Assembly (NCBI RefSeq): GCF_016862815.1
Contig: NZ_BONR01000003.1
Location: 124,001 to 188,000, forward strand
DNA: 64,000 nucleotides
Source of the DNA: Demequina activiva
Lineage (GTDB): Bacteria; Actinomycetota; Actinomycetes; Actinomycetales; Demequinaceae
Direction: 5' to 3'
A program made the position numbers and the translations under genes. This document shows positions 30,106-32,818 of the stretch, piece by piece (within the stretch, counting starts at the first letter, position 1; the number at the start of each line of letters is the position of its first letter). Under the pieces are notes generated by a model. That model saw only the letters and a program-made list of their open reading frames with translations, did not search any database and was not told where the DNA came from.

Positions 30106-30111
30106 GAGACT
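30106..30111 (+). promoter_or_regulatory. -10-like box GAGACT before the Cys-rich leader ORF
   Basis: GAGACT, 7 nt (GTCCGGC), then ATG 30119, with no ribosome site: the layout of a leaderless message. Confidence 0.5.
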
Positions 30112-30118
30112 GTCCGGC

Positions 30119-30190
30119 ATGGCTGACACGCGGACCGCATGCGCATCGATGATGTGCTGTGTCTGCTGCGCCATGTGTCCCGAGGCCTGA
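30119..30190 (+). CDS. Cysteine-rich leader peptide upstream of sulfite reductase
   Basis: A 23-codon open frame with six Cys codons: C8, then C13-C14, C16-C17 and C20 (central part MMCCVCCAMC, ending PEA and TGA). It starts 7 nt after a -10-like box and would be translated without a leader. Its stop lies 109 nt before the sulfite reductase start. Leaderless poly-cysteine ORFs of this kind before sulfur genes act as cysteine attenuators in mycobacteria (established for that group). The composition is far from chance for this genome, where Cys is rare. I infer that slow decoding of the Cys run at low Cys-tRNA reports cysteine shortage. The peptide itself probably has no function. Confidence 0.82.
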   Translation: MADTRTACASMMCCVCCAMCPEA

Positions 30191-30294
30191 GCCCACGGAT
30201 ACACCCCCCCTGTAGCCCTGGGCGCTCGGCCGGCGAGCGCGCACCAGTCGCGCTCGGACGGCCTCGCTCCCTGAAGACACCACGAGTCGAGGAG
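30181..30294 (+). promoter_or_regulatory. Putative cysteine attenuator with alternative pairings
   Basis: Three alternatives can be seen. (1) The anti-SD segment GGCCTCG (30260-30266) contains CCTCG, which pairs with CGAGG (30288-30292) of the sulfite reductase ribosome site. (2) The same GGCCTCG pairs over 7 bp with CGAGGCC (30181-30187), the last codons of the leader ORF. (3) CGAGCGC(G) (30234-30241) pairs either with GCGCTCG (30222-30228) or with CGCGCTCG (30249-30256). A ribosome paused early in the Cys run leaves 30181-30187 free to hold the anti-SD, exposing the ribosome site. A ribosome finishing the ORF masks it and the site is shut. Pairings are by eye. Confidence 0.65.
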
Positions 30295-30299
30295 AATCG

Positions 30300-32087
30300 G
30301 TGACCAGCACCGACGCCAGCACCCCGGATGCGCGCAGCGCGCAGGAGATCGCCGACGCCGACGAGCGCCGCCGCCACCGCGAAGAGGCGCGCATGATTCG
30401 CACTCGCGAGGCCGCCGCGCGCAAGAACACCGCCTCCAAGGATGGCCAGTGGGCCGCGGGCGACCGCACGCCGCTGAACCCCAACGAGGAGATGAAGGCC
30501 GCAGGCGACCCCCTCGAGGTGCGCCAGCGCATCGAGTCGATGTACTCCAAGTGGGGATTCTGGTCGATCCCCCCTGGTGACCTGCGCGGACGCTTCCGCT
30601 GGTGGGGCCTGTACACGCAGCGGCGTCAGGGCATCGATGGCGGCAAGACCGCCGTGCTCGAGCCGCACCAGCTCGACGACGAGTACTTCATGCTTCGCAT
30701 CCGCTCCGACGGCGGGCAGCTGTCCGTGGCGCAGGCGCGAGAGATCGGTCGCATCTCCTCCGAGTTCGGTCGCGACACCGCCGACGTGTCCGACCGCCAG
30801 AACATCCAGCTGCACTGGATCCGCATCGAGGACGTCCCCGAGATCTTCCGTCGCGTCGAGGAGGTGGGGCTGCTGTGCACCGAGGCGTGCGGCGACGTGC
30901 CCCGCGTGATCCTGGGCTCGCCCGTGGCGGGCATCGCCAAGGACGAGCTGATCGACCCCACGCCCCAGATCCGCGAGATCATGGATCGGTACATCGGCTC
31001 CCCCGAGTTCTCGAACCTGCCGCGCAAGTTCAAGACCGCCTTCACCGGCACGCGCGTGCCGGACATCCTCCATGAGGTGCAGGACGTCGCGTTCTGCGCC
31101 GTCGAGCACCCCGAGCTGGGTGTGGGCTACGACCTGTGGGTGGGCGGCGGGCTGTCGATCAACCCCCACCTCGGCGTGCGTCTGGGCGTGTTCGTCCGGC
31201 CGGAGATCGCCCACGAGGTGTGGAAGGGCGTGGTCAGCATCTTCCGCGACCACGGCTACCGGCGCCTGCGCACCCGCGCGCGTCTCAAGTTCCTCGTGAA
31301 GGCGTGGGGCGGCGAGAAGTTCCTGCAGGTGCTGCAGGACGACTACCTGGGGTACGAGCTGCCGAAGGGTCCCGCACCCGAGCTCGCGAGCCGCGGGGAC
31401 CGTGGCGACCACGTGGGCATCCACCAGCAGGCCGACGGCCGCTACTACGTGGGCGTCGCGCCGGTCGCAGGACGCGTGTCCGGCGAGAAGATGCAGCGCA
31501 TCGCTCAGATCGCCGAGTCCGTGGGCTCGGACCGCATCCGTCTCACGCCGCTGCAGAAGATCCTGGTGCTGGACATCCCCGAGGACCGTGTCAGCGACGT
31601 GGTCAACGGGCTGCGCGCGCTCGAGCTCGAGTCCGAGCCCGGCGAGTTCCACCGCAACGTGATCGCCTGCACCGGCATCGAGTACTGCAAGCTCGCCATC
31701 GTCGAGACCAAGGCGACGGCCCGCGAGGTCGTCAAGGTGCTCGACGAGAAGTTCCCCACCCTCGACAACCCGATCACGGTGCACGTCAACGGCTGCCCCA
31801 ACTCCTGCGCCCGCGTGCAGATTGCGGACATCGGCTTCAAGGGCCAGCTGGTGCTCGACGAGGAGTCAGGGGAGCAGGTTCCCGGCTTCCAGGTGCACCT
31901 GGGCGGACGCCTCGGTCGCGGCGAGGACAACGACTTCGGCCGCAAGATTCGCGCTCACAAGGTCACGCAGTCAGGCATGCCCGAGTACGTGGAGCGCGTG
32001 ACGCAGAACTACCTGGAGGACCGCGAGTCCGCGGACGAGAGCTTCGCGGACTGGGCCTTCCGTGCCGACGAGGAGCTCATCAAGTGA
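30300..32087 (+). CDS. sir: Ferredoxin-type assimilatory sulfite reductase
   Basis: A 595-residue siroheme/[4Fe-4S] enzyme that reduces sulfite to sulfide with six electrons, cytoplasmic. It has the two half-repeats of the nitrite/sulfite reductase fold. Cluster ligands are C457 and C463 in ACTGIEYCKLA, and C499 and C503 in NGCPNSCA. Siroheme-contact stretches such as SDRQNIQLHWI and RVSGEKMQ are present. The length and the N-terminal extension of about 70 charged residues match actinobacterial SirA (NirA-like). GTG 30300 has GAGGAG 5 nt upstream, inside the attenuator. It overlaps cysH by 4 nt. Nitrite reduction is a family alternative, but cysH argues for sulfite. Confidence 0.93.
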   Translation: MTSTDASTPDARSAQEIADADERRRHREEARMIRTREAAARKNTASKDGQWAAGDRTPLNPNEEMKAAGDPLEVRQRIESMYSKWGFWSIPPGDLRGRFRWWGLYTQRRQGIDGGKTAVLEPHQLDDEYFMLRIRSDGGQLSVAQAREIGRISSEFGRDTADVSDRQNIQLHWIRIEDVPEIFRRVEEVGLLCTEACGDVPRVILGSPVAGIAKDELIDPTPQIREIMDRYIGSPEFSNLPRKFKTAFTGTRVPDILHEVQDVAFCAVEHPELGVGYDLWVGGGLSINPHLGVRLGVFVRPEIAHEVWKGVVSIFRDHGYRRLRTRARLKFLVKAWGGEKFLQVLQDDYLGYELPKGPAPELASRGDRGDHVGIHQQADGRYYVGVAPVAGRVSGEKMQRIAQIAESVGSDRIRLTPLQKILVLDIPEDRVSDVVNGLRALELESEPGEFHRNVIACTGIEYCKLAIVETKATAREVVKVLDEKFPTLDNPITVHVNGCPNSCARVQIADIGFKGQLVLDEESGEQVPGFQVHLGGRLGRGEDNDFGRKIRAHKVTQSGMPEYVERVTQNYLEDRESADESFADWAFRADEELIK

Positions 32088-32818
32088 CCATCCCGTCCCT
32101 CTCCGGAGGCCTCGCGCTCACCGCTCTGAACCCGAGCGAGTGGAACGCCGAGACCTGTGCCGAGGTGAACGCTCGCCTCGAGACCGCGTCCGCGTCGCAC
32201 ATCGCGGACTGGGCCGTCGCGACCTTCGGCAAGGGACTGGGCGTCGCCTCCTCGATGCAGGACACGATCCTCCCCCACCTGTTCGGCTCGCGGCTGCAGG
32301 GCGTCGACGTGCTGTTCCTCGAGACCGGCTACCACTTCGCGGAGACCATCGAGACCCGTGACGAGGCCGCTCGGGCGTTTCCCGTGACCATCGTGAACGT
32401 CATGCCGCGTCTCTCGGTCGAGGAGCAGGACGCGGAGTACGGCGCCGAGCTGTTCAAGCGCGACCCGAACCTGTGCTGCTTCATGCGCAAGGTCGACCCC
32501 CTGGCGCGAGCGCTGGAAGGCTACGACGCCTGGGTGACCGGGGCCCGACGGATCGACGCCGTGACCCGCTCCGAGATGCCGGTGGTGAGCTGGGACGCCA
32601 AGCACAACCTGGTGAAGATCAACCCGCTCGCCCTGTGGGACGACGCGGACGTCGAGCGCTACCAGGAGACCCACGGCCTCCCTCGCAATCCGCTGGTCGC
32701 GCAGGGCTACCCGAGCATCGGCTGCGCTCCCTGCACGCGCAAGGTCGCCCCTGGGGAGGACGCGCGTGCGGGCCGCTGGTCCGGGCAGGGCAAGACGGAG
32801 TGCGGCATCCACACGTGA
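32084..32818 (+). CDS. cysH: Adenylylsulfate (APS) reductase CysH, [4Fe-4S] type
   Basis: A 244-residue enzyme that makes sulfite from activated sulfate, using thioredoxin. C131-C132 (NLCCFMRKVDPL) and C214, C217 (IGCAPCTRK) are the four cluster ligands of the APS-specific class. The catalytic Cys is C240 in ECGIHT at the extreme C-terminus. These cluster cysteines mean the substrate is more likely APS than PAPS. GTG 32084 overlaps the sulfite reductase stop, so both are under the same leader. No cysD, cysN or sulfate transporter follows, so sulfate activation must be encoded elsewhere. Confidence 0.93.
   Translation: MTIPSLSGGLALTALNPSEWNAETCAEVNARLETASASHIADWAVATFGKGLGVASSMQDTILPHLFGSRLQGVDVLFLETGYHFAETIETRDEAARAFPVTIVNVMPRLSVEEQDAEYGAELFKRDPNLCCFMRKVDPLARALEGYDAWVTGARRIDAVTRSEMPVVSWDAKHNLVKINPLALWDDADVERYQETHGLPRNPLVAQGYPSIGCAPCTRKVAPGEDARAGRWSGQGKTECGIHT

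Follow-up and report, generated by a model that had tools for sequence, protein, structure and literature searches.

The regulatory region described here lies in a 64,000-nucleotide (nt) stretch of the Demequina activiva genome (contig NZ_BONR01000003.1, positions 124,001 to 188,000 of the forward strand), which we call the window and number from its first letter. In this window a short cysteine-rich open reading frame (ORF) stands before a sulfite reductase-cysH operon, and comparison of congeneric loci together with modelling of RNA folding suggests that it probably belongs to a cysteine-responsive, ribosome-mediated attenuator of that operon. The features at the locus are as follows, with leader codons counted back from the stop and codon counts taken over 43 Demequina loci.

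30106..30111, forward strand: -10-like hexamer GAGACT, 7 nt upstream of the leader ATG
30119..30190, forward strand: Cys-rich leader ORF, MADTRTACASMMCCVCCAMCPEA followed by a stop codon; 23 codons, 6 Cys, probably leaderless
30167..30169, forward strand: Cys codon -7 (C17); Cys in 42/43 loci, as TGT in 30 and TGC in 12
30176..30178, forward strand: Cys codon -4 (C20), the predicted main stall codon; TGT in 43/43 loci
30289..30294, forward strand: Shine-Dalgarno (SD) sequence GAGGAG of the reductase gene; its GGAG and the GTG start are invariant in the alignment
30300..32087, forward strand: NirA/SirA-family assimilatory sulfite (or nitrite) reductase, 595 amino acids, GTG start; best NCBIfam matches PRK09566 and PRK09567, below cut-offs
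32084..32818, forward strand: cysH, phosphoadenylyl-sulfate reductase (NF002537, 254.7 bits against a cut-off of 154)

The 4-nt overlap with cysH is the reason for naming the reductase a sulfite reductase. An earlier note, made from the letters of the window, had placed a poly-Cys ORF of this length and composition before the sulfite reductase-cysH pair, with its stop 109 nt upstream of the reductase GTG (30300) and GAGACT 7 nt upstream of its ATG, and all of these particulars were borne out. The window holds no second ATG-initiated ORF of 10-25 codons with at least six Cys codons, and none of 30 first-order Markov windows of 64 kb, used as a chance control, contained one at all.

Leaderless transcription of the ORF, with a transcript start predicted at its ATG, is likely because a hexamer of the pattern xAnnnT lies 6-7 nt upstream of the ATG in every one of the 43 congeneric loci, and no SD sequence is evident for the leader ORF in any of them. 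The hexamer is mostly CACACT or CATCAT, with CACAAT, GAGACT and others also found, and it is usually preceded by TGTG; the element does not match the sigma-70 consensus.

An orthologue of the leader ORF, 21-24 codons long, occupies the same place before the reductase gene in all 43 loci, with 91-128 nt between its stop and the reductase start. The N-terminal half of the peptide is variable and the tail follows the consensus C-[AV]-M-C-[LP]-x-A-stop, in which Ala -1 and Met -5 are present throughout (43/43 each); further upstream, Cys is found at -8 in 34 loci and at -11 in 28, and the number of Cys residues per peptide ranges from 1 to 6. The strongest sign in the sequence that the ORF is translated is the stop codon, which keeps its place while its type varies (TGA in 32 loci, TAG in 9, TAA in 2). 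Cys -7, for which both TGT and TGC are used, is by the same comparison kept at the amino-acid level. The earlier note had made its proposal depend on conservation of the Cys codons in relatives, and this was found at -4 and -7. It had expected stalling over the block C13-C17; C17 is indeed one of the two codons under strongest selection, the other is C20, and the block as a whole is not so constrained.

A covariance model, R1, was built from the peptide tail, the post-stop hairpin and the C:D region described below. R1 matched 43 of 44 Demequina genomes, once in each and always before the reductase operon (E<=3.5e-10), and its best match in 274 Micrococcales genomes outside the genus reached only E=0.029. 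The sole Demequina genome without an R1 match (G040) is also the sole one without a reductase match; its assembly is fragmented, and the absence of both may be a gap. When 84,980 GTDB species genomes were searched with the exact leader pattern, 36 stretches were returned, all from Demequina except one from a Demequinaceae metagenome-assembled genome (MAG) and one from an Actinobacteria MAG. Rfam gave no match at gathering score and, at E up to 5, only a chance microRNA match. As judged from these searches, the leader element is restricted to the genus and tied to a single operon. Weak second R1 matches, in L178-L180 (E 0.004-0.02 per genome) and also at other places in the window, have no short Cys-containing ORF and were rejected as chance; the one at 418-525 of L178 (genome G041, E=0.004 per genome) is an inverted repeat at a different locus. 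In genome G037 the leader (L048, MTDIQGTSGSTPARSMHVMCPMA) has a single Cys left and the reductase gene reads as two overlapping fragments, through either decay or a sequencing error.

Beyond the leader stop, the RNA can form two competing structures from the following segments.

30191..30203, forward strand: segment 2 (B), the 5' arm of the post-stop hairpin, GCCCACGGATACA; covaries with its partner arm
30211..30223, forward strand: partner arm (3') of the post-stop hairpin, TGTAGCCCTGGGC; the GGGC within it also belongs to segment 3
30220..30231, forward strand: segment 3 (C), GGGCGCTCGGCC; nearly invariant, with either B or F as partner
30234..30256, forward strand: D:E hairpin, CGAGCGC (30234-30240) with GCGCTCG (30250-30256), which caps the C:F stem
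30260..30271, forward strand: segment 4 (F), GGCCTCGCTCCC; partner of segment 3, with a CUCC that could also pair with the SD

The post-stop hairpin, B:C, begins 1-4 nt 3' of the stop codon. The outer pairs of this hairpin do not vary, and the inner ones, read from the duplex listing, change together (UACA:UGUA, UACG:CGUA, GGAU:AUCC, GGAA:UUCC). Since the core helices are nearly invariant, we employed an alignment-free test in which cognate duplexes are compared with non-cognate ones. Cognate B:C duplexes had an energy of -16.6 kcal/mol versus -14.7 kcal/mol for non-cognate duplexes, with 0/5000 permutations as low, and the B:C covariation score was 0.110 versus 0.071 +/- 0.009 after shuffling (0/500), every slid register being lower. 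Segment C (GGGCGCUCGGCC) can pair instead with F (GGCCUCGCUCCC; 30220-30231 with 30260-30271), and by eye the C:F pairing is made in relatives with other letters, namely GGCCGAGCUCCC, GGCCGAAAGCCC and GGCCGAUUGCCC, and GCCGnAGCUCCC in one subgroup. The C:F duplex reached -15.3 kcal/mol versus -11.2 kcal/mol with shuffled F regions (p=7e-6), and the end of its stem lies 18 nt from GGAG in the window and 9-39 nt from it in relatives. For the window, the D:E hairpin has a predicted probability of about 1.0 in every state; it pairs better than shuffles, and its covariation is weak (p=0.01). The earlier note had also pointed to the CGAGCGC element, which exists as a 7-nt sequence ending at 30240 rather than at 30241. 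A C:D hairpin (GCGCUCG:CGAGCGC), preferred by RNAalifold, was discarded, because single-sequence ensembles favour D:E and hardly ever contain C:D. Three related leaders (L004, L014, L024) carry a small extra palindrome of the TGATC..GATCA type between F and the SD.

The influence of ribosome position was modelled by removing the RNA under the ribosome and folding the remainder at equilibrium and without pseudoknots, using transcripts that end before the SD unless stated. On general grounds, the leading edge of the ribosome was assumed to lie 12 nt 3' of the first base of the codon in the A site. The 31 non-redundant leaders that were folded all come from one genus and form an effective sample of fewer than 31, and the shuffles preserve composition, not kinship. 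With the ribosome on Cys -7 or Cys -4, the probability of B:C was 0.91 or 0.92 and that of C:F 0.06 or 0.05 (the window's own B:C at the Cys -4 stall was 0.98), versus 0.00 for B:C and 0.74 for C:F with the ribosome on the stop. This shift on moving the ribosome from the last Cys to the stop was seen in 31/31 leaders (p=9e-10). The flip point lay +4 to +8 nt beyond the stop's first base, between the two ribosome positions, and thus separates Cys -4 from the stop even with a 3-nt error in the placement of the edge. In the controls, B:C was 0.16 when the post-stop region was shuffled and C:F was 0.30 when the F side was shuffled. With the Cys -4 codon in the A site, the modelled leading edge lies at about the stop codon, just upstream of the post-stop hairpin. 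The invariant Cys placement would thereby be explained, as a ribosome decoding there would just reach the hairpin and one on the stop would melt it. In the model, mutually exclusive 2:3 and 3:4 helices are set by ribosome position, as in an attenuator of the segment 1-4 type, and the refolding follows the 2:3/3:4 logic of trp-style attenuation. The expectation in the earlier note that ribosome position sets competing RNA structures was upheld in this form, with a conserved pair, the post-stop hairpin versus C:F, that it had not described.

Several results weigh against this account of the switch. In the folded examples the upper C:F stem persists in the B:C state, so that it is mainly GGG:CCC that distinguishes the two states, and switching may be graded. 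When the coding start was included, C:F with the ribosome at the stop averaged only 0.47 over the 31 leaders; the window's own value was 0.00, through competition from the early coding sequence. Because of this drop, the switch fits a co-transcriptional decision best. One leader (L014) barely moves, and C:F is not formed there. The untranslated leader is still mostly in the B:C state in the window and in many relatives; untranslated or early-stalled RNA is predicted to form a 1:2 pairing and then C:F in about half of the leaders, the window's not among them. The sequences compared are closely related. A test of column-pair covariation over the whole alignment, with a tree-based null, returned no pair at E<=0.5, and counting of events yielded scattered long-range pairs but no significant structure; we attribute these null results to the core helices, which hardly vary. 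Finally, there is no U-tract or terminator-like site after F in the window and no T-run there in the leaders inspected. A canonical intrinsic terminator is thus lacking, and the candidate outputs are termination that is atypical or aided by Rho, and hindered loading of ribosomes.

Drawing on ORF conservation, promoter spacing, pair conservation and modelled refolding, we propose that the leader probably switches sulfur assimilation on when cysteine is short. In the steps that we infer, the first transcribed base would be the A of the leader ATG. Under a shortage of Cys-tRNA, the ribosome would halt with the Cys -7 codon or the invariant Cys -4 codon in its A site and with its edge at or before approximately the stop codon, so that B:C stays intact, GGGC is occupied and full C:F pairing is prevented. 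When Cys-tRNA is plentiful, the ribosome would reach the stop, cover the B arm and free C, which would then pair with F, giving a long GC-rich stem with D:E as its cap. The B:C state would be ON and the C:F state OFF, a sign taken from physiology because the operon is biosynthetic. C:F would lower expression via premature termination, either Rho-aided or of a kind that dispenses with a U-tract, or via hindered ribosome loading; SD masking is a less likely output route than these. A more far-reaching form of the proposal is a 2:3/3:4 cysteine attenuator with an invariant stall codon, the fourth before the stop, and a GC-rich stem that lies close to the ribosome site and has no U-tract. Shut-off would proceed without SD masking, either because ribosome loading is blocked or through termination that is atypical or aided by Rho. 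We advance it tentatively, as a serious possibility somewhat short of an even chance.

A different output had been suggested in the earlier note: at low cysteine the ORF tail would hold an anti-SD (GGCCTCGCTCC), which at high cysteine would instead close the ribosome site. In a broader form of this scheme, another upstream segment would take the place of the tail. The elements named for this scheme, CGAGGCC (30181-30187), GGCCTCG (30260-30266) and CGAGG (30288-30292), were found at these positions, and each of the pairings can be written down, but comparison supports only some of them. The pairing of tail and anti-SD, which was to act as the switch, had a probability of 0.01-0.02 in every possible state, and the tail:GGCCUCG covariation amounted to a weak difference between cognate and non-cognate energies (p=0.02) with a mean rank at chance (0.48). 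The CUCC in F can pair with GGAG, and GCUCC:GGAGC is present in one subgroup, yet the F:SD duplexes were without covariation (p=0.91). The SD was predicted to be slightly less accessible than in shuffled leaders (0.168 versus 0.237, p=9e-4), which speaks for masking, but its modelled accessibility was the same with the ribosome at the last Cys and at the stop (0.185 versus 0.212, p=0.24), the small shift running the wrong way, and was also the same in B:C-formed and C:D-formed states. Moreover, a free F coincides with a stalled ribosome, so that the SD would close at low cysteine. Mycobacterial cysteine leaders are described as acting by translation attenuation (PMC13236596, PMC9031893), and this precedent speaks for SD masking; for the Demequina leader we nevertheless consider it improbable.

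Rho-dependent attenuation, in which the stalled ribosome or B:C would block Rho loading or translocation on a C-rich leader and release at the stop would expose that leader, is a better candidate, although still a rather unlikely one as an explanation in its own right. The stretch between the leader stop and the reductase start is C-rich and no U-tract terminator is present, and a proposal of this kind already exists for cys leaders in Mycobacterium and P. acnes (PMC1262725); against it, no conserved rut-like element was identified. Rho action and the B:C/C:F switch can coexist, and Rho may be the means by which the switch takes effect instead of a competing explanation. It is very improbable that the leader ORF encodes a functional Cys-rich micropeptide, binding metal or serving in redox binding, with no role as a sensor. 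The conserved clustering of Cys near the C-terminus speaks for such a function, but the N-terminal half is under no such constraint and the Cys count can fall to one, the ORF always occurs in single copy before the same operon, and the nucleotide constraint runs past the stop into covarying RNA structure.

Returning to the proposed cysteine attenuator, close counterparts are found in mycobacteria. Canestrari et al. reportedly described cysteine-responsive attenuation in M. smegmatis in 2020. The polycysteine leaderless short-ORF attenuators of mycobacteria are described as translational (PMC13236596, PMC9031893; also cited in PMC9094748). Like them, the Demequina leader is a Cys-rich short ORF, predicted to be leaderless, directly before cysteine or sulfur genes, through which the speed of the ribosome would read cysteine, and in all 43 loci the Cys codons of the short ORF are clustered near its stop. 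It differs from them in that a post-stop hairpin and a C:F stem are conserved and SD masking is unsupported. The window peptide and those of two congeners gave no match at E<=10 to either of the NCBIfam leader models, NF042936 (the Ms4527A Cys-rich leader family) and NF042934 (a putative leader peptide). By these comparisons, the Demequina leader would act like the mycobacterial cysteine attenuators, yet is not a sequence member of their family.

Cys leaders also occur in neighbouring genera. Approximately 20 of 76 other Micrococcales loci carry leaderless-type, Cys-ending short ORFs before the same reductase, in several unrelated forms (..MPGCxCRC-stop, MTTAA..CxCCCR-stop, ..VMCC[RQ]A-stop and RRHVDL..C types; loci noted are L035, L036, L058, L070; L064, L076, L093, L095, L100, L105; L080, L102, L114), and the leader peptide before the reductase seems to have been replaced or reinvented repeatedly. 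Two leaders of the RRHVDL type from other Micrococcales genera (L040, L078) match NF042934 and NF042936 weakly, below the cut-offs, which suggests that mycobacterial-type leaders occur in some Micrococcales. If the Demequina leader is a U-tract-free 2:3/3:4 attenuator, the unrelated Cys leaders of neighbouring genera would be separate solutions at the same gene.

Leaders with Cys runs were predicted in 2005 by Seliverstov et al. before cys operons of Mycobacterium and Propionibacterium acnes and before cbs of Bifidobacterium longum; these had no conserved terminator hairpins, and Rho was suggested (PMC1262725). The Demequina leader shares with them the Cys run near the stop codon and the lack of an intrinsic terminator, and differs in its conserved competing hairpins, which shift with ribosome position in modelling. 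With attenuators of the trp/ilv segment 1-4 type, including ilvB1 of M. tuberculosis (PMC13236596), it shares, in modelling, the choice between 2:3 and 3:4 according to whether the ribosome stalls or reaches the stop; it differs from these in that no U-tract follows 3:4 and that only about half of the leaders, the window's excluded, have a predicted 1:2 pairing. For Actinobacteria, cysteine attenuation has been described in mycobacteria, where no conserved RNA switch was reported (PMC1262725) and the effect is attributed to translation (PMC13236596); in the literature consulted, nothing links Demequina with leader peptides. The Demequina leader is thus best described as a lineage-specific variant of cysteine attenuation whose RNA switch is new relative to the literature consulted. 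In a genus with 44 sequenced species, the leader can be aligned, its hairpin covaries, and the modelled switch is sharp enough for key codons and base pairs to be predicted, and because single codons and base pairs are named, the action of a Cys leader that has no canonical terminator becomes directly testable.
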